The position numbers and the translations under genes were made by a program. From Sipunculus nudus (taxonomy: Eukaryota; Annelida; Sipuncula; Golfingiida; Sipunculidae), in assembly GCA_026874595.1 (NCBI GenBank), contig CM049315.1:10554664-10618663 (forward strand): a DNA stretch of 64,000 nt, in the 5' to 3' direction. Under the pieces are notes generated by a model. It worked only from the letters and a program-made list of their open reading frames with translations. It ran no database searches and was not told where the DNA came from. Below, in pieces: positions 19,054 to 40,975 of the stretch (position 1 is its first letter; each line of letters starts with the position of its first letter).

Positions 19054-19581
19054 TTCAGTGTCTTCATCATTCGTAGGGTTTCACTTCGGGAATGAAACTA
19101 CAGTCTTTTGTAAATGTCATTGATGGTGCTTCGGAATGGAGGGGGTGTATTGTAAGCCTGGTAAAAGAGTACGTTTGAGTAATAAAAGGAAAGAAACCCG
19201 AGCTTGTTCTAACTATATGGGAGAGGATATTGTTGGAGACATTAAACACCCACCAGGGTAATCCTTGAAACACCCGGTTATCCCGATGAAAATCTATATT
19301 ATAATGAATTTTCCGTGACAGTGAGACAGAATTCATTGAATTAAAATGTTTTATGGTGATCCAAATTTCCGCCTAAATTAATTGGAGTGTTGCTAGGGCG
19401 AATCGCAAGCCTCAATAAAATGACGGTATCACAGAAAATTTTCTGCGCTGTTTGCGTAAATTTTCCCACAGACAAAGTGAGGGTATGACACCTCTCTCGC
19501 CACCTGGCGGAGGTATATTTGACCGCCTATGTCGGGCTGTCCCGATTGCGATATTTAACTCTCGCTGGAAATGTGTGTAAC

Positions 19582-19654
19582 GGGGAATTAGCTCAAGTGG
19601 TAGAGCGCTCGCTTAGCATGTGAGAGGTACCGGGATCGATACCCGGATTCTCCA
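19582..19654 (+). tRNA. tRNA-Ala(AGC), unit 1 gene A
   Basis: A 73-nt cloverleaf. The acceptor GGGGAAT pairs with ATTCTCC and includes the G3:U70 wobble, the main identity element for alanyl-tRNA synthetase. D-stem GCTC/GAGC, anticodon stem CTCGC/GTGAG with loop TTAGCAT (anticodon AGC, read after A34-to-inosine editing in eukaryotes), T-stem CCGGG/CCCGG with loop ATCGATA, discriminator A73. The internal A box (TAGCTCAAGTGG) and B box (GGGATCGATACC) serve as RNA polymerase III promoter. There is no intron and no encoded CCA. A T7 tract at 19662-19668 is the likely terminator. The body closely resembles animal tRNA-Ala(AGC) genes. This 73-nt form is the reference for the other copies. Confidence 0.98.
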
Positions 19655-20052
19655 TGAATCCTTTTTTTCCTATATGATATAGTTTTGACGGAAATGTTGG
19701 TGACAAAGAAATCGTTTTACTGAAGAAAATAGATTTTAGCAGAATCATTTCCCAAGAGAATCCCCAACGTTCTGACTTTTCAATAACAAGACCGTCCGTG
19801 TAAGAGATTTGAAGTAGAGCTTTACATTTCTACACTTTAACTCTAGTTTGAATACAGACCTTTGACCATTACATATATTTGCTACATGTTGTATGGACAT
19901 ACACTTTTGAATATTGTATCGCATATCAAGCTTGATTATTGATAAGGATTTCATGAAAAACGGGATGATTCAGTAAAATCTCTAATTTCTTAGGAAGTTG
20001 ATGACTCCAGAAGCCGCTGAACAAGTTAAACTAACTTGTCAGATATGGACAA

Positions 20053-20125
20053 GGGGAATTAGCTCAAGTGGTAGAGCGCTCGCTTAGCATGTGAGAGGTA
20101 CCGGGATCGATACCCGGATTCTCCA
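20053..20125 (+). tRNA. tRNA-Ala(AGC), unit 1 gene B
   Basis: Identical 73 nt to gene A, in unrelated flanks: GATATGGACAA upstream and ATGTTTATTTTTGTC downstream. The T5 tract nine bases past the gene is the likely Pol III terminator, shorter than the T6-T7 of gene A. Confidence 0.98.
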
Positions 20126-20931
20126 ATGTTTATTTTTGTCTTCGGGAATGAAGAAGGCAAAATTCCACTGCTGATACAAAGGGTTCTTGTTTAAAGCCGA
20201 GTAAACGTACTTATGTATAAAGATAAATATATGTGTATATTTGTGAGGTTAATACAGAAGAAAATACATCAAGTTATTCATGATCAGCAAGCTTATGGCC
20301 ACAGAAATTAAGCAAATGTGTTGTACACTTGTAAGAGCGATTATCAGTTAATTGGCCTTACTATATGTTAGAGCTATGTGAGATAACAGAAGTTTCTTAA
20401 AAATTCAGTGTCTTCATCATTCGTAGGGTTTCACTTCGGGAATGAAACTACAGTCTTTTGTAAATGTCATTGATGGTGCTTCGGAATGGAGGGGGTGTAT
20501 TGTAAGCCTGGTAAAAGAGTACGTTTGAGTAATAAAAGGAAAGAAACCCGAGCTTGTTCTAACTATATGGGAGAGGATATTGTTGGAGACATTAAACACC
20601 CACCAGGGTAATCCTTGAAACACCCGGTTATCCCGATGAAAATCTATATTATAATGAATTTTCCGTGACAGTGAGACAGAATTCATTGAATTAAAATGTT
20701 TTATGGTGATCCAAATTTCCGCCTAAATTAATTGGAGTGTTGCTAGGGCGAATCGCAAGCCTCAATAAAATGACGGTATCACAGAAAATTTTCTGCGCTG
20801 TTTGCGTAAATTTTCCCACAGACAAAGTGAGGGTATGACACCTCTCTCGCCACCTGGCGGAGGTATTTTTGACCGCCTATGTCGGGCTGTCCCGATTGCG
20901 ATATTTAACTCTCGCTGGAAATGTGTGTAAC

Positions 20932-21004
20932 GGGGAATTAGCTCAAGTGGTAGAGCGCTCGCTTAGCATGTGAGAGGTACCGGGATCGATACCCGGATTC
21001 TCCA
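20932..21004 (+). tRNA. tRNA-Ala(AGC), unit 2 gene A
   Basis: Reference body; A flank with a T7 terminator (TGAATCC then T7). 471 bp to gene B. Confidence 0.98.
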
Positions 21005-21402
21005 TGAATCCTTTTTTTCCTATATGATATAGTTTTGACGGAAATGTTGGTGACAAAGAAATCGTTTTACTGAAGAAAATAGATTTTAGCAGAATCATTT
21101 CCCAAGAGAATCCCCAACGTTCTGACTTTTCAATAACAAGACCGTCCGTGTAAGAGATTTGAAGTAAAGCTTTACATTTCTACACTTTAACTCTAGTTTG
21201 AATACAGACCTTTGACCATTACATATATTTGCTACATGTTGTATGGACATACACTTTTGAATATTGTATCGCATATCAAGCTTGATTATTGATAAGGATT
21301 TCATGAAAAACGGGATGATTCAGTAAAATCTCTAATTTCTTAGGAAGTTGATGACTCCAGAAGCCGCTGAACAAGTTAAACTAACTTGTCAGATATGGAC
21401 AA

Positions 21403-21475
21403 GGGGAATTAGCTCAAGTGGTAGAGCGCTCGCTTAGCATGTGAGAGGTACCGGGATCGATACCCGGATTCTCCA
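21403..21475 (+). tRNA. tRNA-Ala(AGC), unit 2 gene B
   Basis: Reference body; B flank with T5 terminator; upstream GATATGGACAA as in unit 1. Confidence 0.98.
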
Positions 21476-22281
21476 ATGTTTATTTTTGTCTTCGGGAATG
21501 AAGAAGGCAAAATTCCACTGCTGATACAAAGGGTTCTTGTTTAAAGCCGAGTAAACGTACTTATGTATAAAGATAAATATATGTGTATATTTGTGAGGTT
21601 AATACAGAAGAAAATACATCAAGTTATTCATGATCAGCAAGCTTATGGCCACAGAAATTAAGCAAATGTGTTGTACACTTGTAAGAGCGATTATCAGTTA
21701 ATTGGCCTTACTATATGTTAGAGCTATGTGAGATAACAGAAGTTTCTTAAAAATTCAGTGTCTTCATCATTCGTAGGGTTTCACTTCGGGAATGAAACTA
21801 CAGTCTTTTGTAAATGTCATTGATGGTGCTTCGGAATGGAGGGGGTGTATTGTAAGCCTGGTAAAAGAGTACGTTTGAGTAATAAAAGGAAAGAAACCCG
21901 AGCTTGTTCTAACTATATGGGAGAGGATATTGTTGGAGACATTAAACACCCACCAGGGTAATCCTTGAAACACCCGGTTATCCCGATGAAAATCTATATT
22001 ATAATGAATTTTCCGTGACAGTGAGACAGAATTCATTGAATTAAAATGTTTTATGGTGATCCAAATTTCCGCCTAAATTAATTGGAGTGTTGCTAGGGCG
22101 AATCGCAAGCCTCAATAAAATGACGGTATCACAGAAAATTTTCTGCGCTGTTTGCGTAAATTTTCCCACAGACAAAGTGAGGGTATGACACCTCTCTCGC
22201 CACCTGGCGGAGGTATTTTTGACCGCCTATGTCGGGCTGTCCCGATTGCGATATTTAACTCTCGCTGGAAATGTGTGTAAC

Positions 22282-22354
22282 GGGGAATTAGCTCAAGTGG
22301 TAGAGCGCTCGCTTAGCATGTGAGAGGTACCGGGATCGATACCCGGATTCTCCA
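22282..22354 (+). tRNA. tRNA-Ala(AGC), unit 3 gene A
   Basis: Reference body; A flank, T7 terminator. 520 bp to gene B because of a 49-bp duplication in between. Confidence 0.98.
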
Positions 22355-22801
22355 TGAATCCTTTTTTTCCTATATGATATAGTTTTGACGGAAATGTTGG
22401 TGACAAAGAAATCGTTTTACTGAAGAAAATAGATTTAAGCAGAATCATTTTCCAAGAGAATCCCCAACGTTCTGACTTTTCAATAACAAGACCGTCCGTG
22501 TAAGAGATTTGAAGTAGAGCTTTACATTTCTTCACTTTAACTCTAGTTTGAATACAGACCTTGGACCATTACATATATTTGCTACATGTTGTATGGACAT
22601 ACACTTTTGAATATTGTATCGCATATCAAGCTTGATTATTGATAAGGATTTTATGAAAAACGGGATATTTCAGTAAAATCTCTAATTTCTTAGGAAGTTG
22701 AAGACTCCAGAAGCCGCTGAACAAGTTAAACTAACTTGTCAGGTGTGGACAGACTCCAGAAGCCGCTGAACAAGTTAAACTAACTTGTCAGGTGTGGACA
22801 A

Positions 22802-22874
22802 GGGGAATTAGCTCAAGTGGTAGAGCGCTCGCTTAGCATGTGAGAGGTACCGGGATCGATACCCGGATTCTCCA
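22802..22874 (+). tRNA. tRNA-Ala(AGC), unit 3 gene B
   Basis: Reference body. The 49 bp immediately upstream are present twice (22702-22750 and 22751-22799), so its 5' flank is a direct duplication. T5 terminator. Confidence 0.98.
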
Positions 22875-23680
22875 ATGTTTATTTTTGTCTTCGGGAATGA
22901 AGAAGGCAAAATTCCACTGCTGATACAAAGGGTTCTTGTTTAAAGCCGAGTAAACGTACTTATGTATAAAGATAAATATATGTGTATATTTGTGAGGTTA
23001 ATACAGAAGAAAATACATCAAGTTATTCATGATCAGCAAGCTTATGGCCACAGAAATTAAGCAAATGTGTTGTATACTTGTAAGAGCGATTATCAGTTAA
23101 TTGGCCTTACTATATGTTAGAGCTATGTGAGATAACAGAAGTTTCTTAAAAATTCAGTGTCTTCATCATTCGTAGGGTTTCACTTCGGGAATGAAACTAC
23201 AGTCTTTTGTAAATGCCATTGATGGTGCTTCGGAATGGAGGGGGTGTATTGTAAGCCTGGTAAAAGAGTACGTTTGAGTAATAAAAGGAAAGAAACCCGA
23301 GCTTGTTCTAACTATATGGGAGAGGATATTGTTGGAGACATTAAACACCCACCAGGGTAATCCTTGAAACACCCGGTTATCCCGATGAAAATCTATATTA
23401 TAATGAATTTTCCGTGACAGTGAGACAGAATTCATTGAATTAAAATGTTTTATGGTGATCCAAATTTCCGCCTAAATTAATTGGAGTGTTGCTAGGGCGA
23501 ATCGCAAGCCTCAATAAAATGACGGTATCACAGAAAATTTTCTGCGCTGTTTGCGTAAATTTTCCCACAGACAAAGTGAGGGTATGACACCTCTCTCGCC
23601 ACCTGGCGGAGGTATTTTTGACCGCCTATGTCGGGCTGTCCCGATTGCGATATTTAACTCTCGCTGGAAATGTGTGTAAC

Positions 23681-23753
23681 GGGGAATTAGCTCAAGTGGT
23701 AGAGCGCTCGCTTAGCATGTGAGAGGTACCGGGATCGATACCCGGATTCTCCA
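23681..23753 (+). tRNA. tRNA-Ala(AGC), unit 4 gene A
   Basis: Reference body; A flank, T7 terminator. Confidence 0.98.
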
Positions 23754-24151
23754 TGAATCCTTTTTTTCCTATATGATATAGTTTTGACGGAAATGTTGGT
23801 GACAAAGAAATCGTTTTACTGAAGAAAATAGATTTAAGCAGAATCATTTTCCAAGAGAATCCCCAACGTTCTGACTTTTCAATAACAAGACCGTCCGTGT
23901 AAGAGATTTGAAGTAGAGCTTTACATTTCTTCACTTTAACTCTAATTTGAATACAGACCTTGGACCATTACATATATTTGCTACATGTTGTATGGACATA
24001 CACTTTTGAATATTGTATCGCATATCAAGCTTGATTATTGATAAGGATTTTATGAAAAACGGGATATTTCAGTAAAATCTCTAATTTCTTAGGAAGTTGA
24101 AGACTCCAGAAGCCGCTGAACAAGTTAAACTAACTTGTCAGGTGTGGACAA

Positions 24152-24224
24152 GGGGAATTAGCTCAAGTGGTAGAGCGCTCGCTTAGCATGTGAGAGGTAC
24201 CGGGATCGATACCCGGATTCTCCA
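24152..24224 (+). tRNA. tRNA-Ala(AGC), unit 4 gene B
   Basis: Reference body; upstream GGTGTGGACAA, T5 terminator. Confidence 0.98.
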
Positions 24225-25030
24225 ATGTTTATTTTTGTCTTCGGGAATGAAGAAGGCAAAATTCCACTGCTGATACAAAGGGTTCTTGTTTAAAGCCGAG
24301 TAAACGTACTTATGTATAAAGATAAATATATGTGTATATTTGTGAGGTTAATACAGAAGAAAATACATCAAGTTATTCATGATCAGCAAGCTTATGGCCA
24401 CAGAAATTAAGCAAATGTGTTGTATACTTGTAAGAGCGATTATCAGTTAATTGGCCTTACTATATGTTAGAGCTATGTGAGATAACAGAAGTTTCTTAAA
24501 AATTCAGTGTCTTCATCATTCGTAGGGTTTCACTTCGGGAATGAAACTACAGTCTTTTGTAAATGCCATTGATGGTGCTTCGGAATGGAGGGGGTGTATT
24601 GTAAGCCTGGTAAAAGAGTACGTTTGAGTAATAAAAGGAAAGAAACCCGAGCTTGTTCTAACTATATGGGAGAGGATATTGTTGGAGACATTAAACACCC
24701 ACCAGGGTAATCCTTGAAACACCCGGTTATCCCGATGAAAATCTATATTATAATGAATTTTCCGTGACAGTGAGACAGAATTCATTGAATTAAAATGTTT
24801 TATGGTGATCCAAATTTCCGCCTAAATTAATTGGAGTGTTGCTAGGGCGAATCGCAAGCCTCAATAAAATGACGGTTTCACAGAAAATTTTCTGCGCTGT
24901 TTGCGTAAATTTTCCCACAGACAAAGTGAGGGTATGACACCTCTCTCGCCACCTGGCGGATGTATTTTTGACCGCCTATGTCGGGCTGTCCCGATTGCGA
25001 TATTTAACTCTCGCTGGAAATGTGTGCAAC

Positions 25031-25103
25031 GGGGAATTAGCTCAAGTGGTAGAGCGCTCGCTTAGCATGTGAGAGGTACCGGGATCGATACCCGGATTCT
25101 CCA
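25031..25103 (+). tRNA. tRNA-Ala(AGC), unit 5 gene A
   Basis: Reference body; upstream flank now reads TGTGTGCAAC, a variant shared by units 5-8, 10 and 11. T7 terminator. Confidence 0.98.
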
Positions 25104-25501
25104 TGAATCCTTTTTTTCCTATATGATATAGTTTTGACGGAAATGTTGGTGACAAAGAAATCGTTTTACTGAAGAAAATAGATTTAAGCAGAATCATTTT
25201 CCAAGAGAATCCCCAACGTTCTGACTTTTCAATAACAAGACCGTCCGTGTAAGAGATTTGAAGTAGAGCTTTACATTTCTTCACTTTAACTCTAATTTGA
25301 ATACAGACCTTGGACCATTACATATATTTGCTACATGTTGTATGGACATACACTTTTGAATATTGTATCGCATATCAAGCTTGATTATTGATAAGGATTT
25401 TATGAAAAACGGGATATTTCAGTAAAATCTCTAATTTCTTAGGAAGTTGAAGACTCCAGAAGCCGCTGAACAAGTTAAACTAACTTGTCAGGTGTGGACA
25501 A

Positions 25502-25574
25502 GGGGAATTAGCTCAAGTGGTAGAGCGCTCGCTTAGCATGTGAGAGGTACCGGGATCGATACCCGGATTCTCCA
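25502..25574 (+). tRNA. tRNA-Ala(AGC), unit 5 gene B
   Basis: Reference body; B flank, T5 terminator. Confidence 0.98.
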
Positions 25575-26380
25575 ATGTTTATTTTTGTCTTCGGGAATGA
25601 AGAAGGCAAAATTCCACTGCTGATACAAAGGGTTCTTGTTTAAAGCCGAGTAAACGTACTTATGTATAAAGATAAATATATGTGTATATTTGTGAGGTTA
25701 ATACAGAAGAAAATACATCAAGTTATTCATGATCAGCAAGCTTATGGCCACAGAAATTAAGCAAATGTGTTGTATACTTGTAAGAGCGATTATCAGTTAA
25801 TTGGCCTTACTATATGTTAGAGCTATGTGAGATAACAGAAGTTTCTTAAAAATTCAGTGTCTTCATCATTCGTAGGGTTTCACTTCGGGAATGAAACTAC
25901 AGTCTTTTGTAAATGTCATTGATGGTGCTTCGGAATGGAGGGGGTGTATTGTAAGCCTGGTAAAAGAGTACGTTTGAGTAATAAAAGGAAAGAAACCCGA
26001 GCTTGTTCTAACTATATGGGAGAGGATATTGTTGGAGACATTAAACACCCACCAGGGTAATCCTTGAAACACCCGGTTATCCCGATGAAAATCTATATTA
26101 TAATGAATTTTCCGTGACAGTGAGACAGAATTCATTGAATTAAAATGTTTTATGGTGATCCAAATTTCCGCCTAAATTAATTGGAGTGTTGCTAGGGCGA
26201 ATCGCAAGCCTCAATAAAATGACGGTTTCACAGAAAATTTTCTGCGCTGTTTGCGTAAATTTTCCCACAGACAAAGTGAGGGTATGACACCTCTCTCGCC
26301 ACCTGGCGGATGTATTTTTGACCGCCTATGTCGGGCTGTCCCGATTGCGATATTTAACTCTCGCTGGAAATGTGTGCAAC

Positions 26381-26453
26381 GGGGAATTAGCTCAAGTGGT
26401 AGAGCGCTCGCTTAGCATGTGAGAGGTACCGGGATCGATACCCGGATTCTCCA
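26381..26453 (+). tRNA. tRNA-Ala(AGC), unit 6 gene A
   Basis: Reference body; A flank, T7 terminator. Confidence 0.98.
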
Positions 26454-26851
26454 TGAATCCTTTTTTTCCTATATGATATAGTTTTGACGGAAATGTTGGT
26501 GACAAAGAAATCGTTTTACTGAAGAAAATAGATTTAAGCAGAATCATTTTCCAAGAGAATCCCCAACGTTCTGACTTTTCAATAACAAGACCGTCCGTGT
26601 AAGAGATTTGAAGTAGAGCTTTACATTTCTTCACTTTAACTCTAATTTGAATACAGACCTTGGACCATTACATATATTTGCTACATGTTGTATGGACATA
26701 CACTTTTGAATATTGTATCGCATATCAAGCTTGATTATTGATAAGGATTTTATGAAAAACGGGATATTTCAGTAAAATCTCTAATTTCCTAGGAAGTTGA
26801 AGACTCCAGAAGCCGCTGAACAAGTTAAACTAACTTGTCAGGTGTGGACAA

Positions 26852-26924
26852 GGGGAATTAGCTCAAGTGGTAGAGCGCTCGCTCAGCATGTGAGAGGTAC
26901 CGGGATCGATACCCGGATTCACCA
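26852..26924 (+). pseudogene. Variant, probably defective tRNA-Ala(AGC), unit 6 gene B
   Basis: The cloverleaf is kept, but two functional positions change. The anticodon loop reads TCAGCAT, so the near-invariant U33 is C. The 3' acceptor strand reads ATTCACC, replacing U70 with A and turning the G3:U70 identity pair into a G:A mismatch. Loss of G3:U70 is known to abolish charging by alanyl-tRNA synthetase in most systems, so the product, if made, is unlikely to be alanylated. A and B boxes and the T5 terminator are intact, so it could still be transcribed. Assembly or read error is the alternative. Confidence 0.8.
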
Positions 26925-27729
26925 ATGTTTATTTTTGTCTTCGGGAATGAAGAAGGCAAAATTCCACTGCTGATACAAAGGGTTCTTGTTTAAAGCCGAG
27001 TAAACGTATATATGTATAAAGATAAATATATGTGTATATTTGTGAGGTTAATACAGAAGAAAATACATCAAGTTTTCATGATCAGCAAGCTTATGGCCAC
27101 AGAAATTAAGCAAATGTGTTGTACACTTGTAAGAGCGATTATCAGTTAATTGGCCTTACTATATGTTAGAGCTATGTGAGATAACAGAAGTTTCTTCAAA
27201 ATTCAGTGTCTTCATCAGTGGTAGGGTTTCACTTTGGGAATGAAACTACAGTCTTTTGTAAATGTTATTGATGGTGCTTCGGAATGGAGGGGGTGTATTG
27301 TAAGCCTGGTAAAAGAGAACATTTGAGTAATAAAAGGTAAGAAACCCGAGCTTGTTCTAACTATATGGGAGAGGATATTGTTGGAGACATTAAACACCCA
27401 CCAGGGTAATCCTTGAAACACCCAGTTATCCCGATGAAAATCTATATTATAATGAATTTTCCATGACAGTGAGACAGAATTCATTGAATTAAAATGTTTT
27501 ATGGTGATCCAAATTTCCGCCTAAATTAATTGGAGTGTTGCTAGGGCGAATCGCAAGCCTCAATAAAATGACGGTTTCACAGAAAATTTTCTGCGCTGTT
27601 TGCGTAAATTTTCCCACAGACAAAGTGAGGGTATGACACCTCTCTCGCCACCTGGCGGATGTATTTTTGACCGCCTATGTCGGGCTGTCCCGATTGCGAT
27701 ATTTAACTCTCGCTGGAAATGTGTGCAAC

Positions 27730-27802
27730 GGGGAATTAGCTCAAGTGGTAGAGCGCTCGCTTAGCATGTGAGAGGTACCGGGATCGATACCCGGATTCTC
27801 CA
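27730..27802 (+). tRNA. tRNA-Ala(AGC), unit 7 gene A
   Basis: Reference body; A flank, T7 terminator. First unit of the second spacer subfamily (CATCAGTGG at the unit start). Confidence 0.98.
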
Positions 27803-28200
27803 TGAATCCTTTTTTTCCTATATGATATAGTTTTGACGGAAATGTTGGTGACAAAGAAATCGTTTTACTGAAGAAAATAGATTTAAGCAGAATCATTTTC
27901 CAAGAGAATCCCCAACGTTCTGACTTTTCAATAACAAGACCGTCCGTGTAAGAGATTTGAAGTAGAGCTTTACATTTCTTCACTTTAACTCTAATTTGAA
28001 TACAGACCTTGGACCATTACATATATTTGCTACATGTTGTATGGACATACACTTTTGAATATTGTATCGCATATCAAGCTTGATTATTGATAAGGATTTT
28101 ATGAAAAACGGGATATTTCAGTAAAATCTCTAATTTCCTAGGAAGTTGAAGACTCCAGAAGCCGCTGAACAAGTTAAACTAACTTGTCAGGTGTGGACAA

Positions 28201-28273
28201 GGGGAATTAGCTCAAGTGGTAGAGCGCTCGCTTAGCATGTGAGAGGTACCGGGATCGATACCCGGATTCTCCA
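28201..28273 (+). tRNA. tRNA-Ala(AGC), unit 7 gene B
   Basis: Reference body; B flank, T5 terminator. Confidence 0.98.
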
Positions 28274-29078
28274 ATGTTTATTTTTGTCTTCGGGAATGAA
28301 GAAGGCAAAATTCCACTGCTGATACAAAGGGTTCTTGTTTAAAGCCGAGTAAACGTACTTATGTATAAAGATAAATATATGTGTATATTTGTGAGGTTAA
28401 TACAGAAGAAAATACATCAAGTTTTCATGATCAGCAAGCTTATGGCCACAGAAATTAAGCAAATGTGTTGTACACTTGTAAGAGCGATTATCAGTTAATT
28501 GGCCTTACTATATGTTAGAGCTATGTGAGATAACAGAAGTTTCTTCAAAATTCAGTGTCTTCATCAGTGGTAGGGTTTCACTTTGGGAATGAAACTACAG
28601 TCTTTTGTAAATGTTATTGATGGTGCTTCGGAATGGAGGGGGTGTATTGTAAGCCTGGTAAAAGAGAACATTTGAGTAATAAAAGGTAAGAAACCCGAGC
28701 TTGTTCTAACTATATGGGAGAGGATATTGTTGGAGACATTAAACACCCACCAGGGTAATCCTTGAAACACCCAGTTATCCCGATGAAAATCTATATTATA
28801 ATGAATTTTCCATGACAGTGAGACAGAATTCATTGAATTAAAATGTTTTATGGTGATCCAAATTTCCGCCTAAATTAATTGGAGTGTTGCTAGGGCGAAT
28901 CGCAAGCCTCAATAAAATGACGGTTTCACAGAAAATTTTCTGCGCTGTTTGCGTAAATTTCCCCACAGACAAAGTGAGGGTATGACACCTCTCTCGCCAC
29001 CTGGCGGATGTATTTTTGACCGCCTATGTCGGGCTGTCCCGATTGCGATATTTAACTCTCGCTGGAAATGTGTGCAAC

Positions 29079-29151
29079 GGGGAATTAGCTCAAGTGGTAG
29101 AGCGCTCGCTTAGCATGTGAGAGGTACCGGGATCGATACCCGGATTCTCCA
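29079..29151 (+). tRNA. tRNA-Ala(AGC), unit 8 gene A
   Basis: Reference body and T7 terminator. About 143 bp of the normal A-to-B spacer is deleted starting ~27 bp after the gene, so gene B is only 328 bp away. Confidence 0.98.
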
Positions 29152-29406
29152 TGAATCCTTTTTTTCCTATATGATATACATTTCTTCACTTTAACTCTAA
29201 TTTGAATACAGACCTTGGACCATTACATATATTTGCTACATGTTGTATGGACATACACTTTTGAATATTGTATCGCATATCAAGCTTGATTATTGATAAG
29301 GATTTTATGAAAAACGGGATATTTCAGTAAAATCTCTAATTTCCTAGGAAGTTGAAGACTCCAGAAGCCGCTGAACAAGTTAAACTAACTTGTCAGGTGT
29401 GGACAA

Positions 29407-29479
29407 GGGGAATTAGCTCAAGTGGTAGAGCGCTCGCTTAGCATGTGAGAGGTACCGGGATCGATACCCGGATTCTCCA
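29407..29479 (+). tRNA. tRNA-Ala(AGC), unit 8 gene B
   Basis: Reference body; B flank intact, T5 terminator. Confidence 0.98.
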
Positions 29480-30284
29480 ATGTTTATTTTTGTCTTCGGG
29501 AATGAAGAAGGCAAAATTCCACTGCTGATACAAAGGGTACTTGTTTAAAGCCGAGTAAACGTATATATGTATAAAGATAAATATATGTGTATATTTGTGA
29601 GGTTAATACAGAAGAAAATACATCAAGTTATTCATGATCAGCAAGCTTATGGCCACAGAAATTAAGCAAATGTGTTGTACACTAGTAAGAGCGATTATCA
29701 GTTAATTGGCCTTACTATATGTTAGAGCTATGTGAGATAACAGAAGTTTCTTAAAAATTCAGTGTCTTCATCATTCGTAGGGTTTCACTTCGGGAATGAA
29801 ACTACAGTCTTTTGTAAATGTCATTGATGGTGCTTCGGAATGCAGGGGGTGTATTGTAAGCCTGGTAAAAGAGTACGTTTGAGTAATAAAAGGAAAGAAA
29901 CCCGAGCTTGTTCTAACTATTTGGGAGAGGATATTGTTGGAGACATTAAACACCCACCAGGGTAATCCTTGAAACTCCCGGTTATACCGATGAAAATCTA
30001 TATTATAATGAATTTTCCGTGACAGTGAGACAGAATTCATTGAATTAAAATGTTTTATGGTGATCCAAATTTCCGCCTAAATTAATTGGAGTGTTGCTAG
30101 GGCGAATCGCAAGCCTCAATAAAATGACGGTTTCACATAAAATTTTCTGCGCTGTTTGCGTAAATTTTCCCACAGACAAAGTGAGGGTATGACACCTCTC
30201 TCGCCACCTGGCGGAGATATTTTTGACCGCCTATGTCGGGCTGTCCTGATTGCGATATTTAACTCTCGCTGGAAATGGTGTAAC

Positions 30285-30357
30285 GGGGAATTAGCTCAAG
30301 TGGTAGAGCGCTCGCTTAGCATGTGAGAGGTACCGGGATCGATACCCGGATTCTCCA
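30285..30357 (+). tRNA. tRNA-Ala(AGC), unit 9 gene A
   Basis: Reference body; upstream AATGGTGTAAC and downstream TGAATCCA then T6. This flank variant is shared with units 12, 14 and 16. Confidence 0.98.
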
Positions 30358-30755
30358 TGAATCCATTTTTTCCTATATGATATAGTTTTGACGGAAATGT
30401 TGGTGACAAAGAAATCGTTTTACTGAAGAAAATAGATTTAAGCAGAATCATTTTCCAAGAGAATCCCCAACGTTCTGACTTTTCAATAACAAGACCGTCC
30501 GTGTAAGAGATTTGAAGTAGAGCTTTACATTTCTTCACTTTAACTCTAATTTGAATACAGACCTTGGACCATTACATATATTTGCTACATGTTGTATGGA
30601 CATACACTTTTGAATATTGTATCGCATATCAAGCTTGATTATTGATAAGGATTTTATGAAAAACGGGATATTTCAGTAAAATCTCTAATTTCTTAGGAAG
30701 TTGAAGACTCCAGAAGCCGCTGAACAAGTTAAACTAACTTGTCAGGTGTGGACAA

Positions 30756-30828
30756 GGGGAATTAGCTCAAGTGGTAGAGCGCTCGCTTAGCATGTGAGAG
30801 GTACCGGGATCGATACCCGGATTCTCCA
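30756..30828 (+). tRNA. tRNA-Ala(AGC), unit 9 gene B
   Basis: Reference body; B flank, T5 terminator. Confidence 0.98.
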
Positions 30829-31632
30829 ATGTTTATTTTTGTCTTCGGGAATGAAGAAGGCAAAATTCCACTGCTGATACAAAGGGTTCTTGTTTAAAGC
30901 CGAGTAAACGTACTTATGTATAAAGATAAATATATGTGTATATTTGTGAGGTTAATACAGAAGAAAATACATCAAGTTTTCATGATCAGCAAGCTTATGG
31001 CCACAGAAATTAAGCAAATGTGTTGTACACTTGTAAGAGCGATTATCAGTTAATTGGCCTTACTATATGTTAGAGCTATGTGAGATAACAGAAGTTTCTT
31101 CAAAATTCAGTGTCTTCATCAGTGGTAGGGTTTCACTTCGGGAATGAAACTACAGTCTTTTGTAAATGTTATTGATGGTGCTTCGGAATGGAGGGGGTGT
31201 ATTGTAAGCCTGGTAAAAGAGAACATTTGAGTAATAAAAGGTAAGAAACCCGAGCTTGTTCTAACTATATGGGAGAGGATATTGTTGGAGACATTAAACA
31301 CCCACCAGGGTAATCCTTGAAACACCCAGTTATCCCGATGAAAATCTATATTATAATGAATTTTCCATGACAGTGAGACAGAATTCATTGAATTAAAATG
31401 ATTTATGGTGATCCAAATTTCCGCCTAAATTAATTGGAGTGTTGCTAGGGCGAATCGCAAGCCTCAATAAAATGACGGTTTCACATAAAATTTTCTGCGC
31501 TGTTTGCGTAAATTTTCCCACAGACAAAGTGAGGGTATGACACCTCTCTCGCCACCTGGCGGAGGTATTTTTGACCGCCTATGTCTGGCTGTCCCGATTG
31601 CGATATTTAACTCTCGCTGGTATGTGTGCAAC

Positions 31633-31705
31633 GGGGAATTAGCTCAAGTGGTAGAGCGCTCGCTTAGCATGTGAGAGGTACCGGGATCGATACCCGGATT
31701 CTCCA
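31633..31705 (+). tRNA. tRNA-Ala(AGC), unit 10 gene A
   Basis: Reference body; downstream TGAATCCC then T6. Confidence 0.98.
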
Positions 31706-32102
31706 TGAATCCCTTTTTTCCTATATGATATAGTTTTGACGGAAATGTTGGTGACAAAGAAATCGTTTACTGAAAAAAATAGATTTAAGCAGAATCATTT
31801 TCCAAGAGAATCCCCAACGTTCTGACTTTTCAATAACAAGACCGTCCGTGTAAGAGATTTGAAGTAGAGCTTTACATTTCTTCACTTTAACTCTAATTTG
31901 AATACAGACCTTGGACCATTACATATATTTGCTACATGTTGTATGGACATACACTTTTGAATATTGTATCGCATATCAAGCTTGATTATTGATAAGGATT
32001 TTATGAAAAACGGGATATTTCAGTAAAATCTCTAATTTCCTAGGAAGTTGAAGACTCCAGAAGCCGCTGAACAAGTTAAACTAACTTGTCAGGTGTGGAC
32101 AA

Positions 32103-32175
32103 GGGGAATTAGCTCAAGTGGTAGAGCGCTCGCTTAGCATGTGAGAGGTACCGGGATCGATACCCGGATTCTCCA
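32103..32175 (+). tRNA. tRNA-Ala(AGC), unit 10 gene B
   Basis: Reference body; B flank, T5 terminator. Confidence 0.98.
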
Positions 32176-32980
32176 ATGTTTATTTTTGTCTTCGGGAATG
32201 AAGAAGGCAAAATTCCACTGCTGATACAAAGGGTTCTTGTTTAAAGCCGAGTAAACGTACTTATGTATAAAGATAAATATATGTGTATATTTGTGAGGTT
32301 AATACAGAAGAAAATACATCAAGTTTTCATGATCAGCTAGCTTATGGCCACAGAAATTAAGCAAATGTGTTGTACACTTGTAAGAGCGATTATCAGTTAA
32401 TTGGCCTTACTATATGTTAGAGCTATGTGAGATAACAGAAGTTTCTTCAAAATTCAGTGTCTTCATCAGTGGTAGGGTTTCACTTTGGGAATGAAACTAC
32501 AGTCTTTTGTAAATGTTATTGATGGTGCTTCGGAATGGAGGGGGTGTATTGTAAGCCTGGTAAAAGAGAACATTTGAGTAATAAAAGGTAAGAAACCCGA
32601 GCTTGTTCTAACTATATGGGAGAGGATATTGTTGGAGACATTAAACACCCACCAGGGTAATCCTTGAAACACCCAGTTATCCCGATGAAAATCTATATTA
32701 TAATGAATTTTCCATGACAGTGAGACAGAATTCATTGAATTAAAATGTTTTATGGTGATCCAAATTTCCGCCTAAATTAATTGGAGTGTTGCTAGGGCGA
32801 ATCGCAAGCCTCAATAAAATGACGGTTTCACAGAAAATTTTCTGCGCTGTTTGCGTAAATTTCCCCACAGACAAAGTGAGGGTATGACACCTCTCTCGCC
32901 ACCTGGCGGATGTATTTTTGACCGCCTATGTCGGGCTGTCCCGATTGCGATATTTAACTCTCGCTGGAAATGTGTGCAAC

Positions 32981-33053
32981 GGGGAATTAGCTCAAGTGGT
33001 AGAGCGCTCGCTTAGCATGTGAGAGGTACCGGGATCGATACCCGGATTCTCCA
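32981..33053 (+). tRNA. tRNA-Ala(AGC), unit 11 gene A
   Basis: Reference body; A flank, T7 terminator. Confidence 0.98.
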
Positions 33054-33451
33054 TGAATCCTTTTTTTCCTATATGATATAGTTTTGACGGAAATGTTGGT
33101 GACAAAGAAATCGTTTTACTGAAGAAAATAGATTTAAGCAGAATCATTTTCCAAGAGAATCCCCAACGTTCTGACTTTTCAATAACAAGACCGTCCGTGT
33201 AAGAGATTTGAAGTAGAGCTTTACATTTCTTCACTTTAACTCTAATTTGAATACAGACCTTGGACCATTACATATATTTGCTACATGTTGTATGGACATA
33301 CACTTTTGAATATTGTATCGCATATCAAGCTTGATTATTGATAAGGATTTTATGAAAAACGGGATATTTCAGTAAAATCTCTAATTTCCTAGGAAGTTGA
33401 AGACTCCAGAAGCCGCTGAACAAGTTAAACTAACTTGTCAGGTGTGGACAA

Positions 33452-33524
33452 GGGGAATTAGCTCAAGTGGTAGAGCGCTCGCTTAGCATGTGAGAGGTAC
33501 CGGGATCGATACCCGGATTCTCCA
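33452..33524 (+). tRNA. tRNA-Ala(AGC), unit 11 gene B
   Basis: Reference body; B flank, T5 terminator. Confidence 0.98.
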
Positions 33525-34329
33525 ATGTTTATTTTTGTCTTCGGGAATGAAGAAGGCAAAATTCCACTGCTGATACAAAGGGTACTTGTTTAAAGCCGAG
33601 TAAACGTATATATGTATAAAGATAAATATATGTGTATATTTGTGAGGTTAATACAGAAGAAAATACATCAAGTTATTCATGATCAGCAAGCTTATGGCCA
33701 CAGAAATTAAGCAAATGTGTTGTACACTAGTAAGAGCGATTATCAGTTAATTGGCCTTACTATATGTTAGAGCTATGTGAGATAACAGAAGTTTCTTAAA
33801 AATTCAGTGTCTTCATCATTCGTAGGGTTTCACTTCGGGAATGAAACTACAGTCTTTTGTAAATGTCATTGATGGTGCTTCGGAATGCAGGGGGTGTATT
33901 GTAAGCCTGGTAAAAGAGTACGTTTGAGTAATAAAAGGAAAGAAACCCGAGCTTGTTCTAACTATTTGGGAGAGGATATTGTTGGAGACATTAAACACCC
34001 ACCAGGGTAATCCTTGAAACTCCCGGTTATACCGATGAAAATCTATATTATAATGAATTTTCCGTGACAGTGAGACAGAATTCATTGAATTAAAATGTTT
34101 TATGGTGATCCAAATTTCCGCCTAAATTAATTGGAGTGTTGCTAGGGCGAATCGCAAGCCTCAATAAAATGACGGTTTCACATAAAATTTTCTGCGCTGT
34201 TTGCGTAAATTTTCCCACAGACAAAGTGAGGGTATGACACCTCTCTCGCCACCTGGCGGAGATATTTTTGACCGCCTATGTCGGGCTGTCCTGATTGCGA
34301 TATTTAACTCTCGCTGGAAATGGTGTAAC

Positions 34330-34402
34330 GGGGAATTAGCTCAAGTGGTAGAGCGCTCGCTTAGCATGTGAGAGGTACCGGGATCGATACCCGGATTCTC
34401 CA
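34330..34402 (+). tRNA. tRNA-Ala(AGC), unit 12 gene A
   Basis: Reference body; flanks as unit 9 (AATGGTGTAAC; T6). 781 bp to gene B because of a 310-bp spacer duplication. Confidence 0.98.
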
Positions 34403-35110
34403 TGAATCCATTTTTTCCTATATGATATAGTTTTGACGGAAATGTTGGTGACAAAGAAATCGTTTTACTGAAGAAAATAGATTTAAGCAGAATCATTTTC
34501 CAAGAGAATCCCCAACGTTCTGACTTTTCAATAACAAGACCGTCCGTGTAAGAGATTTGAAGTAGAGCTTTACATTTCTTCACTTTAACTCTAATTTGAA
34601 TACAGACCTTGGACCATTACATATATTTGCTACATGTTGTATGGACATACACTTTTGAATATTGTATCGCATATCAAGCTTGATTATTGATAAGGATTTT
34701 ATGAAAAACGGGATATTTCAGTAAAATCTCTAATTTCTTAGGAAGTTGAAGACTCCAGAAGCCGCTGAACAAGTTAAACTAACTTGTCAGATTTAAGCAG
34801 AATCATTTTCCAAGAGAATCCCCAACGTTCTGACTTTTCAATAACAAGACCGTCCGTGTAAGAGATTTGAAGTAGAGCTTTACATTTCTTCACTTTAACT
34901 CTAATTTGAATACAGACCTTGGACCATTACATATATTTGCTACATGTTGTATGGACATACACTTTTGAATATTGTATCGCATATCAAGCTTAATTATTGA
35001 TAAGGATTTTATGAAAAACGGGATATTTCAGTAAAATCTCTAATTTCTTAGGAAGTTGAAGACTCCAGAAGCCGCTGAACAAGTTAAACTAACTTGTCAG
35101 GTGTGGACAA

Positions 35111-35183
35111 GGGGAATTAGCTCAAGTGGTAGAGCGCTCGCTCAGCATGTGAGAGGTACCGGGATCGATACCCGGATTCTCCA
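35111..35183 (+). tRNA. tRNA-Ala(AGC), unit 12 gene B, C33 variant
   Basis: One change from the reference: anticodon loop TCAGCAT, so position 33 is C instead of the near-universal U that makes the U-turn. G3:U70 and both promoter boxes are intact, so it may be transcribed and charged but decode poorly. It shares C33 with the unit 6 gene B, which suggests spread of the variant by conversion or a common ancestor. Confidence 0.88.
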
Positions 35184-35988
35184 ATGTTTATTTTTGTCTT
35201 CGGGAATGAAGAAGGCAAAATTCCACTGCTGATACAAAGGGTTCTTGTTTAAAGCCGAGTAAACGTACTTATGTATAAAGATAAATATATGTGTATATTT
35301 GTGAGGTTAATACAGAAGAAAATACATCAAGTTTTCATGATCAGCAAGCTTATGGCCACAGAAATTAAGCAAATGTGTTGTACACTTGTAAGAGCGATTA
35401 TCAGTTAATTGGCCTTACTATATGTTAGAGCTATGTGAGATAACAGAAGTTTCTTCAAAATTCAGTGTCTTCATCAGTGGTAGGGTTTCACTTTGGGAAT
35501 GAAACTACAGTCTTTTGTAAATGTTATTGATGGTGCTTCGGAATGGAGGGGGTGTATTGTAAGCCTGGTAAAAGAGAACATTTGAGTAATAAAAGGTAAG
35601 AAACCCGAGCTTGTTCTAACTATATGGGAGAGGATATTGTTGGAGACATTAAACACCCACCAGGGTAATCCTTGAAACACCCAGTTATCCCGATGAAAAT
35701 CTATATTATAATGAATTTTCCATGACAGTGAGACAGAATTCATTGAATTAAAATGTTTTATGGTGATCCAAATTTCCGCCTAAATTAATTGGAGTGTTGC
35801 TAGGGCGAATCGCAAGCCTCAATAAAATGACGGTTTCACAGAAAATTTTCTGCGCTGTTTGCGTAAATTTTCCCACAGACAAAGTGAGGGTATGACACCT
35901 CTCTCGCCACCTGGCGGAGGTATTTTTGACCGCCTATGTCGGGCTGTCCCGATTGCGATATTTAACTCTCGCTGGAAATGTGTGTAAC

Positions 35989-36061
35989 GGGGAATTAGCT
36001 CAAGTGGTAGAGCGCTCGCTTAGCATGTGAGAGGTACCGGGATCGATACCCGGATTCTCCA
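35989..36061 (+). tRNA. tRNA-Ala(AGC), unit 13 gene A
   Basis: Reference body; downstream TGAATCC then T6 (one T shorter than most). Confidence 0.98.
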
Positions 36062-36458
36062 TGAATCCTTTTTTCCTATATGATATAGTTTTGACGGAAA
36101 TGTTGGTGACAAAGAAATCGTTTTACTGAAGAAAATAGATTTAAGCAGAATCATTTTCCAAGAGAATCCCCAACGTTCTGACTTTTCAATAACAAGACCG
36201 TCCGTGTAAGAGATTTGAAGTAGAGCTTTACATTTCTTCACTTTAACTCTAATTTGAATACAGACCTTGGACCATTACATATATTTGCTACATGTTGTAT
36301 GGACATACACTTTTGAATATTGTATCGCATATCAAGCTTGATTATTGATAAGGATTTTATGAAAAACGGGATATTTCAGTAAAATCTCTAATTTCTTAGG
36401 AAGTTGAAGACTCCAGAAGCCGCTGAACAAGTTAAACTAACTTGTCAGGTGTGGACAA

Positions 36459-36531
36459 GGGGAATTAGCTCAAGTGGTAGAGCGCTCGCTTAGCATGTGA
36501 GAGGTACCGGGATCGATACCCGGATTCTCCA
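36459..36531 (+). tRNA. tRNA-Ala(AGC), unit 13 gene B
   Basis: Reference body; B flank, T5 terminator. Confidence 0.98.
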
Positions 36532-37335
36532 ATGTTTATTTTTGTCTTCGGGAATGAAGAAGGCAAAATTCCACTGCTGATACAAAGGGTTCTTGTTTAA
36601 AGCCGAGTAAACGTACTTATGTATAAAGATAAATATATGTGTATATTTGTGAGGTTAATACAGAAGAAAATACATCAAGTTTTCATGATCAGCAAGCTTA
36701 TGGCCACAGAAATTAAGCAAATGTGTTGTACACTTGTAAGAGCGATTATCAGTTAATTGGCCTTACTATATGTTAGAGCTATGTGAGATAACAGAAGTTT
36801 CTTCAAAATTCAGTGTCTTCATCAGTGGTAGGGTTTCACTTTGGGAATGAAACTACAGTCTTTTGTAAATGTTATTGATGGTGCTTCGGAATGGAGGGGG
36901 TGTATTGTAAGCCTGGTAAAAGAGAACATTTGAGTAATAAAAGGTAAGAAACCCGAGCTTGTTCTAACTATATGGGAGAGGATATTGTTGGAGACATTAA
37001 ACACCCACCAGGGTAATCCTTGAAACACCCAGTTATCCCGATGAAAATCTATATTATAATGAATTTTCCATGACAGTGAGACAGAATTCATTGAATTAAA
37101 ATGTTTTATGGTGATCCAAATTTCCGCCTAAATTAATTGGAGTGTTGCTAGGGCGAATCGCAAGCCTCAATAAAATGACGGTTTCACATAAAATTTTCTG
37201 CGCTGTTTGCGTAAATTTTCCCAGAGACAAAGTGAGGGTATGACACCTCTCTCGCCACCTGGCGGAGATACTTTTGACCGCCTATGTCGGGCTGTCCTGT
37301 TTGCGATATTTAACTCTCGCTGGAAATGGTGTAAC

Positions 37336-37408
37336 GGGGAATTAGCTCAAGTGGTAGAGCGCTCGCTTAGCATGTGAGAGGTACCGGGATCGATACCCGG
37401 ATTCTCCA
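37336..37408 (+). tRNA. tRNA-Ala(AGC), unit 14 gene A
   Basis: Reference body; AATGGTGTAAC upstream, T6 downstream. Its spacer variants (CCCAGAGAC, CCTGTTTGCG) match unit 16. Confidence 0.98.
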
Positions 37409-37806
37409 TGAATCCATTTTTTCCTATATGATATAGTTTTGACGGAAATGTTGGTGACAAAGAAATCGTTTTACTGAAGAAAATAGATTTAAGCAGAATC
37501 ATTTTCCAAGAGAATCCCCAACGTTCTGACTTTTCAATAACAAGACCGTCCGTGTAAGAGATTTGAAGTAGAGCTTTACATTTCTTCACTTTAACTCTAG
37601 TTTGAATACAGACCTTGGACCATTACATATATTTGCTACATGTTGTATGGACATACACTTTTGAATATTGTATCGCATATCAAGCTTGATTATTGATAAG
37701 GATTTTATGAAAAACGGGATAATTCAGTAAAATCTCTAATTTCTTAGGAAGTTGAAGACTCCAGAGTCCGCTGAACAAGTTAAACTAACTTGTCAGATGT
37801 GGACAA

Positions 37807-37879
37807 GGGGAATTAGCTCAAGTGGTAGAGCGCTCGCTTAGCATGTGAGAGGTACCGGGATCGATACCCGGATTCTCCA
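37807..37879 (+). tRNA. tRNA-Ala(AGC), unit 14 gene B
   Basis: Reference body; upstream CAGATGTGGACAA and CCAGAGTCCGCTG, a B-flank variant shared by units 14-16. T5 terminator. Confidence 0.98.
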
Positions 37880-38682
37880 ATGTTTATTTTTGTCTTCGGG
37901 AATGAAGAAGGCAAAATTCCACTGCTGATACAAAGGGTTCTTGTTTAAAGCCGAGTAAACGTACTTATGTATAAAGATAAATATATGTGTATATTTGTGA
38001 GGTTAATACAGAAGAAAATACATCAAGTTTTCATGATCAGCAAGCTTATGGCCACAGAAATTAAGCAAATGTGTTGTACACTTGTAAGAGCGATTATCAG
38101 TTAATTGGCCTTACTATATGTTAGAGCTATGTGAGATAACAGAAGTTTCTTCAAAATTCAGTGTCTTCATCAGTGGTAGGGTTTCACTTTGGGAATGAAA
38201 CTACAGTCTTTTGTAAATGTTATTGATGGTGCTTCGGAATGGAGGGGGTGTATTGTAAGCCTGGTAAAAGAGAACATTTGAGTAATAAAAGGTAAGAAAC
38301 CCGAGCTTGTTCTAACTATATGGGAGAGGATATTGTTGGAGACATTAAACACCCACCAGGGTAATCCTTGAAACACCCAGTTATCCCGATGAAAATCTAT
38401 ATTATAATGAATTTTCCATGACAGTGAGACAGAATTCATTGAATTAAAATGTTTTATGGTGATCCAAATTTCCGCCTAAATTAATTGGAGTGTTGCTAGG
38501 GCGAATCGCAAGCCTCAATAAAATGACGGTATCACAGAAAATTTTCTGCGCTGTTTGCGTAAATTTTCCCACAGACAAAGTGAGGGTATGACACCTCTCT
38601 CGCCACCTGGCGGAGGTAATTTTGACCGCCTATGTCGGGATGTCCCGATTGCGATATTTAACTCTCGCTGGATATGTGTAAC

Positions 38683-38755
38683 GGGGAATTAGCTCAAGTG
38701 GTAGAGCGCTCGCTTAGCATGTGAGAGGTACCGGGATCGATACCCGGATTCTCCA
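38683..38755 (+). tRNA. tRNA-Ala(AGC), unit 15 gene A
   Basis: Reference body; T7 terminator. Confidence 0.98.
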
Positions 38756-39153
38756 TGAATCCTTTTTTTCCTATATGATATAGTTTTGACGGAAATGTTG
38801 GTGACAAAGAAATCGTTTTACTGAAGAAAATAGATTTAAGCAGAATCATTTTCCAAGAGAATCCCCAACGTTCTGACTTTTCAATAACAAGACCGTCCGT
38901 GTAAGAGATTTGAAGTAGAGCTTTACATTTCTTCACTTTAACTCTAGTTTGAATACAGACCTTGGACCATTACATATATTTGCTACATGTTGTATGGACA
39001 TACACTTTTGAATATTGTATCGCATATCAAGCTTGATTATTGATAAGGATTTTATGAAAAACGGGATAATTCAGTAAAATCTCTAATTTCTTAGGAAGTT
39101 GAAGACTCCAGAGTCCGCTGAACAAGTTAAACTAACTTGTCAGATGTGGACAA

Positions 39154-39226
39154 GGGGAATTAGCTCAAGTGGTAGAGCGCTCGCTTAGCATGTGAGAGGT
39201 ACCGGGATCGATACCCGGATTCTCCA
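39154..39226 (+). tRNA. tRNA-Ala(AGC), unit 15 gene B
   Basis: Reference body; B flank, T5 terminator. Confidence 0.98.
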
Positions 39227-40030
39227 ATGTTTATTTTTGTCTTCGGGAATGAAGAAGGCAAAATTCCACTGCTGATACAAAGGGTTCTTGTTTAAAGCCG
39301 AGTAAACGTACTTATGTATAAAGATAAATATATGTGTATATTTGTGAGGTTAATACAGAAGAAAATACATCAAGTTTTCATGATCAGCAAGCTTATGGCC
39401 ACAGAAATTAAGCAAATGTGTTGTACACTTGTAAGAGCGATTATCAGTTAATTGGCCTTACTATATGTTAGAGCTATGTGAGATAACAGAAGTTTCTTCA
39501 AAATTCAGTGTCTTCATCAGTGGTAGGGTTTCACTTTGGGAATGAAACTACAGTCTTTTGTAAATGTTATTGATGGTGCTTCGGAATGGAGGGGGTGTAT
39601 TGTAAGCCTGGTAAAAGAGAACATTTGAGTAATAAAAGGTAAGAAACCCGAGCTTGTTCTAACTATATGGGAGAGGATATTGTTGGAGACATTAAACACC
39701 CACCAGGGTAATCCTTGAAACACCCAGTTATCCCGATGAAAATCTATATTATAATGAATTTTCCATGACAGTGAGACAGAATTCATTGAATTAAAATGTT
39801 TTATGGTGATCCAAATTTCCGCCTAAATTAATTGGAGTGTTGCTAGGGCGAATCGCAAGCCTCAATAAAATGACGGTTTCACATAAAATTTTCTGCGCTG
39901 TTTGCGTAAATTTTCCCAGAGACAAAGTGAGGGTATGACACCTCTCTCGCCACCTGGCGGAGATACTTTTGACCGCCTATGTCGGGCTGTCCTGTTTGCG
40001 ATATTTAACTCTCGCTGGAAATGGTGTAAC

Positions 40031-40103
40031 GGGGAATTAGCTCAAGTGGTAGAGCGCTCGCTTAGCATGTGAGAGGTACCGGGATCGATACCCGGATTCT
40101 CCA
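40031..40103 (+). tRNA. tRNA-Ala(AGC), unit 16 gene A
   Basis: Reference body; AATGGTGTAAC upstream, T6 downstream. Confidence 0.98.
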
Positions 40104-40501
40104 TGAATCCATTTTTTCCTATATGATATAGTTTTGACGGAAATGTTGGTGACAAAGAAATCGTTTTACTGAAGAAAATAGATTTAAGCAGAATCATTTT
40201 CCAAGAGAATCCCCAACGTTCTGACTTTTCAATAACAAGACCGTCCGTGTAAGAGATTTGAAGTAGAGCTTTACATTTCTTCACTTTAACTCTAGTTTGA
40301 ATACAGACCTTGGACCATTACATATATTTGCTACATGTTGTATGGACATACACTTTTGAATATTGTATCGTATATCAAGCTTGATTATTGATAAGGATTT
40401 TATGAAAAACGGGATAATTCAGTAAAATCTCTAATTTCTTAGGAAGTTGAAGACTCCAGAGTCCGCTGAACAAGTTAAACTAACTTGTCAGATGTGGACA
40501 A

Positions 40502-40574
40502 GGGGAATTAGCTCAAGTGGTAGAGCCCTCGCTTAGCATGTGAGAGGTGCCGGGATCGATACCCGGATTCTCCA
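40502..40574 (+). tRNA. tRNA-Ala(AGC), last copy, hybrid B/A gene with two substitutions
   Basis: The upstream flank is B type (CAGATGTGGACAA) and the downstream flank is A type (TGAATCTA, then T5, CCTATATGATATAG), so the gene is a crossover product between A and B bodies. It differs from the reference at G26C, the base between D and anticodon stems, and at A48G at the end of the variable loop. Stems, AGC anticodon and G3:U70 are kept, so it may be functional. It is the rightmost and most diverged copy apart from the unit 6 variant, as expected for an array edge that takes little part in homogenisation. Confidence 0.9.
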
Positions 40575-40975
40575 TGAATCTATTTTTCCTATATGATATA
40601 GTTTTGACGGAAATGTTGGTGACAAAGAAATCGTTTTACTGAAGAAAATAGATTTAAGCAGAATCATTTCCCAAGAGAATCCCCAACGTTCTGACTTTTC
40701 AATAACAAGACAGTCCATGTAAGAGTAAGAGAAGTAGAGCTTTACATTTCTTCACTTTAACTCTAGTTTGAATATAGACCTTGGACCATTACATGGTGCT
40801 CGAACAATGTTATCAGAAACCTTTGCTCAATGAAAAATAAAAGAAAATCTTATATTCCACACCTTGCACAAACTGGCTTTGCTACTTGTTGTATGGACAT
40901 GTACTGTTTTGAATATTGGATCGCATATGAAGCTTGATGATTGATAAGGATTTTATTAAAAAGGACAAATTAAGC
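40575..40975. repeat. Diverged right tail of the tRNA array
   Basis: Follows the A-to-B spacer of the core units with growing divergence and then fades. It retains the GGTGCTCGAACAATG stretch (40795-40877) otherwise found only in the two left 1178-bp copies. No tRNA follows. Confidence 0.85.

Follow-up and report, generated by a model that had tools for sequence, protein, structure and literature searches.

Tandem arrays of transfer RNA (tRNA) genes are already established. Within Entamoeba, E. histolytica keeps almost all of its tRNA genes in arrays, built from 25 distinct units; the units are mostly uniform within an isolate, and a unit carrying only tRNA-Ala(AGC) is tabulated for four species (PMC2652664). 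Homogeneous tandem tRNA repeats have been called uncommon outside Entamoeba (PMC4041453). On chromosome 1 of Arabidopsis, 27 Ser-Tyr-Tyr units extend across almost 40 kb (PMC10701932), the triplets being less strictly regular in a later reading (PMC11700998), and at human 1q23.3 a GC-rich unit of 7.3 kb holds five genes for four amino acids on both strands, at 9-43 units per allele (PMC4041453). Most tRNA genes of zebrafish, stickleback and Nematostella are clustered, some clusters in Nematostella and teleosts having at least fifty members (PMC2888827). In the flat oyster, tRNA-Ser and tRNA-Thr genes are over-represented without specific clustering, and the same paper tabulates 465 tRNA-Ala for Mercenaria (PMC9679248). 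Here we describe an array of 32 tRNA-Ala(AGC) genes in a 64,000-nucleotide stretch of the Sipunculus nudus genome (the window; contig C10, positions 10554664-10618663, from an assembly of 1,426,538,692 bases, or 1.43 Gb, in 153 contigs). The locus was not reported in the openly licensed titles and abstracts on tRNA arrays (general, bivalve and mollusc) that were searched by topic and not by species, and a literature search on the Xenopus repeat gave nothing. The part of the present case that is worth pursuing is the genome-wide concentration of tRNA genes to which the array belongs.

ARAGORN placed 32 tRNA-Ala(AGC) genes in the window, all on the plus strand and spanning the 21 kb from 19582 to 40574, and all 32 exceeded the gathering score of the Rfam family RF00005 (45.8-54.3 bits against 29). 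The genes are arranged in pairs, giving sixteen units about 1.35 kb long, the last of which is incomplete, and Ala(AGC) is the only isoacceptor that they carry. Both programs thus agree with the preliminary description of the window, which had proposed a dense, same-strand, single-isoacceptor array built from a two-gene unit, and a comparison of the tRNA bodies likewise bore out its count of 29 identical bodies among the 32, the remaining three carrying one, two and two base differences. The 15 complete units run head to tail with mutual identities of 97.3-100%. The spacing from the first gene of a unit (A) to the second (B) is about 471 bp, thirteen of the 16 units having 470 or 471 bp, and from B to the A of the following unit it is about 878 bp, within 876-879 bp in all 15 cases. 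Units 3, 8 and 12 depart from the A-B spacing with 520, 328 and 781 bp, owing to a 49-bp duplication, to 143 missing bp and to a 310-bp duplication, respectively. The GC content of the array bins, 38-39%, lies inside the range of the surroundings (33-43%). The longest open frame within the repeat unit runs to 101 codons from stop to stop, and the unit offers no case for an encoded protein.

The array resembles Entamoeba in its tandem units and in that several arrays serve particular isoacceptors, one of them Ala(AGC) only (PMC2652664). It differs in belonging to a 1.43-Gb genome, in having two genes per unit and in that such genes occur outside the array as well. The short inter-gene tandem repeats of E. 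histolytica and E. dispar were not found, the only duplications here being those of 49 and 310 bp, in one unit each. With the Arabidopsis Ser-Tyr-Tyr cluster it shares repeated units that hold two genes for the same amino acid, although that cluster also includes tRNA-Ser and belongs to a plant. Human 1q23.3 is likewise an animal tandem repeat of tRNA genes, with a unit identity of about 98% (PMC4041453). The human repeat, however, binds CTCF, is GC-rich and mixes tRNAs (PMC4041453), whereas the present one has 38-39% GC and Ala(AGC) only; the human type of GC-rich unit with mixed tRNAs is thus not found here. Zebrafish differs in that its commonest tRNA gene pairs are mixed, and the likeness drawn here concerns clustering (PMC2888827). 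The paired same-isoacceptor unit had been put forward as distinctive; the Ala(AGC)-only unit of Entamoeba (PMC2652664) and at least four other compact arrays in this genome speak against that, and with such precedents and sibling arrays the locus is not singular.

Judged by their sequence signals, the array genes look functional. An A box, a B box and, within 20 nt, at least four T in succession are present in all 32, as is the AGC anticodon, while U33 is kept in 30 and the G3:U70 alanine identity pair in 31. All 21 stem pairs are formed in 31 of the 32 genes, and the minimum-energy fold of the common body is the cloverleaf (three genes were folded). In the gene at 26852-26924, the B gene of unit 6, both U33 and G3:U70 are lost and the minimum-energy fold is not a cloverleaf; this copy is probably a pseudogene. 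The common body also carries G30:U40, A15/A48 and A54/A58, pairs that have been described as a peculiarity of certain eukaryotic tRNA-Ala, mostly with the AGC anticodon, and as unseen in fungi and nematodes (PMC7566577).

The share of the array in the AGC genes of the genome was assessed with an AGC-type pattern of 35 places, allowing up to two mismatches, across the whole 1.43-Gb assembly. Genome counts are taken from such pattern searches, as the genome DNA search with the unit gives a lower bound; Rfam scored only 63 of 100426 candidates genome-wide, too few for a full tRNA census. The pattern matched 37 times, with 32 matches in the array, two on contig C11 and one each on C1, C2 and C6, although more divergent AGC gene bodies could escape it. 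A second pattern, combining the other Ala family with the AGC anticodon, reached 129 places within two mismatches, none of them exact, and among the matches listed no AGC was seen, the anticodon reading TGC or CGC. No further copy of the 73-nt body with up to three mismatches was found on the window's contig, so that the window contains the entire array as assembled. The array had also been called private: this holds for its own contig, but the exact body is present once on C2 and twice on C11.

Seven tRNA patterns, that of Ala(AGC) included, were probed, and each shows one dominant cluster. For Lys(UUU), 88 of 94 matches lie in C9:40605435-40766423; where inspected, the repeat unit there is about 1.67 kb long and also holds a Met(CAT) gene. 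Ala(UGC/CGC) was matched at 121 places, and C12:36.117-36.239 Mb accounts for 84 of the 100 matches listed, the inspected units there measuring about 1.92 kb and holding Ala(CGC), Ala(TGC) and Ser(GCT); the remaining 21 of the 121 places are all on the reverse strand. As the Lys and Ala(UGC/CGC) patterns were drawn from arrays already met, their concentration is expected. The Gly pattern was freely chosen, while Asp, Phe and initiator Met were chosen before searching; these four derive from human tRNAs, and the identity of their matches is by pattern alone. Gly(GCC) has 51 of 59 matches in C14:50251811-50361130, mainly at 2085-bp steps. Initiator Met has 61 of 65 in C2:57100192-57204940 (60 of the 61 on the same strand, commonest step about 1.32 kb), all 65 being at the three-mismatch limit, so that close variants would be missed inside and outside the array. 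For Asp, 14 of 19 matches fall in C2:24.967-25.112 Mb at steps of 0.87 to 44 kb, three in succession at about 7.1 kb, and all nine Phe matches (four exact, three only at the three-mismatch limit) lie on one strand of C8:78.897-79.073 Mb with irregular spacing. Besides the present one, compact tRNA arrays in this genome number at least four: initiator Met on C2, Lys with Met on C9, two Ala with Ser on C12 (36.117-36.246 Mb) and Gly on C14. The Asp and Phe genes lie in loose clusters and not in compact arrays, which counts against a uniform genome-wide rule. An Entamoeba-like arrangement of the genome as a whole is somewhat more likely than not; nuclear tRNA genes would then lie in dominant clusters, each for a single tRNA type or a few, and many of these clusters would be compact arrays with units of 1.3-2.1 kb, so that single loci would carry most of each supply.

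Ala(TGC) genes were also seen at C1:3698694-3869044, at steps of about 10.4 kb and then 8.1 kb, as a long-unit tandem array; at the single place inspected there, a Ser(GCT) gene stands 4 bp upstream of Ala(TGC). In three stretches (L034, L042 and L018) Ser(GCT) genes share a strand with Ala(TGC or CGC) genes at a distance of 3-4 bp, and the two are possibly co-transcribed.

The constancy of the body can be judged inside and outside the array. The identical 73-base body occurs in five flank contexts, namely gene A, gene B, two places on C11 that are 2.8 kb apart and one place on C2. These contexts agree at 73 of 73 body positions and their 60-nt flanks are 13-40% alike (10 pairs per side), where random 60-mers from the window gave a mean of 26%, a 95th percentile of 37% and a 99th of 42%. 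With the same body between unlike flanks, homogenisation of the array alone is insufficient to explain the identity, which calls either for selection acting on the tRNA or for conversion confined to the gene. Segregating sites among the 15 complete units number 2 in 146 body positions and 53 in 1204 spacer positions. The main weight of the argument rests on the identity across loci and not on this contrast within the array. The distant AGC genes on C6 and C1 each differ from the array body at 7 of 73 positions and have G30-C40.

The repeat units also record how the array has moved. Adjacent units resemble each other more closely than when their order is shuffled (P 0.006, 20,000 shuffles). Units 7, 8 and 9 differ from units 10, 11 and 12 by 3, 0 and 7 bases, in a pairwise range of 0-33, and the P for a three-unit block match of this quality, at any of the lags 3 to 7, is 0.026. 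A block of three units, about 4 kb, was therefore probably duplicated, with a later private deletion in unit 8 and a private duplication in unit 12. Including decayed copies, the locus extends over 16698-40981. Its left edge consists of two 1178-bp copies, 99.83% alike, each with a decayed unit piece and a degenerate tRNA 5' end, and the remnant at the right edge aligns with its left counterpart across 328 positions at 89%. A block of 84 bp is present at both edges and absent from the core units, and the last gene (40502-40574) has an upstream flank of B type and a downstream flank of A type. A homogeneous core with edges of an older type would be the expected leftovers of unequal exchange. 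The edge remnants and the body search of the contig agree with the earlier suggestion that the window captures the whole locus with decayed edges; the limits then given, 19054-40975, missed the left edge.

We consider that the locus is probably a tandem array of RNA polymerase III (Pol III) genes dedicated to tRNA-Ala(AGC), most of which it would supply in this organism; it is most likely a dosage array that evolves via unequal exchange under selection. A tRNA-Ala(AGC) with A34 (inosine) should read the codons GCU and GCC. Every gene would be transcribed as a separate unit, with the A and B boxes inside it and an oligo-T terminator of its own, and the array genes would be expressed. Copy number would be kept through unequal exchange between sister or homologous arrays, while the bodies would be held uniform by purifying selection on the product and the spacers by exchange. 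If one array indeed holds most genes for a tRNA that decodes common alanine codons, translation capacity could shift in a single step through unequal crossing over, as in ribosomal DNA. Several arrays together with outlying copies of the same body would also make a natural comparison between selection on the product and exchange between copies as the means by which tRNA genes are kept identical.

A number of observations weigh against this reading. Among the 20 flank comparisons, three, each of downstream flanks, come up to the 95th percentile of the random set (A-B 37%, the two C11 places 37%, A-C2 40%); such values fit shared T-run terminators, and some of the contexts may have a distant common origin. 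Conversion between chromosomes may be the source of the body identity. The contrast between body and spacer within the array has the same direction but is borderline (hypergeometric P 0.051), and three of the 32 genes do carry body changes. Finally, a tandem tRNA-Cys cluster of Arabidopsis is apparently epigenetically silenced (PMC10701932). This last case also fits the view that the array is a passive product of unequal crossing over without benefit, most copies being redundant or silenced and a few genes elsewhere being the functional ones. The five AGC-type genes outside the array, the visible duplications and deletion that shape its size and the variable size of other eukaryotic tRNA gene clusters (PMC4041453) accord with such a history, which we nevertheless regard as unlikely: 29 of the 32 bodies are still identical while the units diverge by up to 2.7%, and the other tRNA types sampled are likewise concentrated, which is easier to explain if the clusters are working gene sets.

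The remaining explanations are much less probable than a passive origin. By analogy with the proposal for human 1q23.3, the array might act mainly as a chromatin boundary or organiser, and tRNA genes can indeed be barriers, and the human repeat binds CTCF (PMC4041453); the GC-rich units and mixed tRNAs of that repeat set against the GC content and single isoacceptor found here make such a role very unlikely. That the assembler had multiplied one or two units, as was feared in the preliminary description, is not borne out by the sequence and is highly improbable, as the units differ by 0-33 substitutions whose sharing is structured, three indels are private and the edges grade into decayed copies. 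No more credible is the tandem amplification of a tRNA-bearing mobile element, whether a terminal-repeat retrotransposon in miniature (TRIM), Helenus or a short interspersed element (SINE). Bivalve Helenus elements do carry tRNA-like sequences, the related LTR-11_DR family forms tandem arrays (PMC10886601), and part of the spacer (about unit positions 1040-1285) matches elsewhere in the genome at 67-75%. The array tRNAs are intact, however, and the unlike flanks of A and B show that these are not paired long terminal repeats (LTRs). A genome DNA search, a lower bound that missed the array itself, found no copy of the whole unit outside the array, and its off-array matches were only tRNA bodies or short spacer pieces.

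Table 1. Repeat units, their two tRNA-Ala(AGC) genes and the edge copies of the locus, in window positions.
Feature	Position	Strand	Gene A	Gene B	Remarks
Left-edge 1178-bp repeat, copy 1	16698..17875	+			Decayed unit fragment 17410-17875; degenerate 5' tRNA remnant near 17809
Left-edge 1178-bp repeat, copy 2	17876..19053	+			2 differences from copy 1
Partial core unit	19054..19581	+			Unit positions 823-1350; 99.8% to unit 2
Unit 1	19582..20931	+	19582-19654	20053-20125	
Unit 2	20932..22281	+	20932-21004	21403-21475	
Unit 3	22282..23680	+	22282-22354	22802-22874	49-bp tandem duplication 22702-22800
Unit 4	23681..25030	+	23681-23753	24152-24224	
Unit 5	25031..26380	+	25031-25103	25502-25574	
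Unit 6	26381..27729	+	26381-26453	26852-26924 (T33C, T70A)	
Unit 7	27730..29078	+	27730-27802	28201-28273	
Unit 8	29079..30284	+	29079-29151	29407-29479	143 bp missing between A and B
Unit 9	30285..31632	+	30285-30357	30756-30828	
Unit 10	31633..32980	+	31633-31705	32103-32175	
Unit 11	32981..34329	+	32981-33053	33452-33524	Zero substitutions against unit 8 across shared bases
Unit 12	34330..35988	+	34330-34402	35111-35183 (T33C)	310-bp tandem duplication 34479-35100
Unit 13	35989..37335	+	35989-36061	36459-36531	
Unit 14	37336..38682	+	37336-37408	37807-37879	
Unit 15	38683..40030	+	38683-38755	39154-39226	
Unit 16 (last, incomplete)	40031..40574	+	40031-40103		Second gene 40502-40574 (G26C, A48G)
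Right-edge remnant	40575..40981	+			Older unit type; carries the 84-bp block

Elsewhere in the window, two sets of repeats about 21-22 bp long, which share the motif CTCGTTCCCACGCGATA, stand in opposite orientations at 42184-42246 and 43127-43238, about 1 kb apart. Two minisatellites lie inside long open frames, one of 36 bp x 8 (43741-44031) and one of 41 bp x 9 (62695-63065). Four open reading frames of the window were tested against Pfam: that with the 36-bp minisatellite matched PF03847 (2e-6, barely over the cut-off) and PF21070 (under the cut-off), both taken as spurious, and the other three gave no match. A hydrophilic open frame of 142 codons on the minus strand (48197-48625) could be an exon; it had no Pfam match, and a search of the PDB returned E-values of 0.1 and 0.58 only.

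In the assembly at large, 11 COX1-family matches were found, ten on small contigs and one a 51-position fragment on C5, and no full-length mitochondrial COX1 was recognised among them. The translations from C61 and C123 look bacterial, and for the C61 protein the closest relatives with a name (best 80 of 342) are 53-59% alike and come from many bacterial groups. Near-equal COX1-family scores were obtained for C60, C61, C62, C66, C72, C74, C75 and C89, the last with two copies 2.04 Mb apart; these contigs may belong to several strains of a single associated bacterium whose genome is about 2 Mb in size. Within positions 110000-115000 of the 144-kb contig C115, a stretch of about 730 bp holds seven tRNA genes, with four for Lys and three for Asn nearly alternating, and is probably of bacterial or phage origin.

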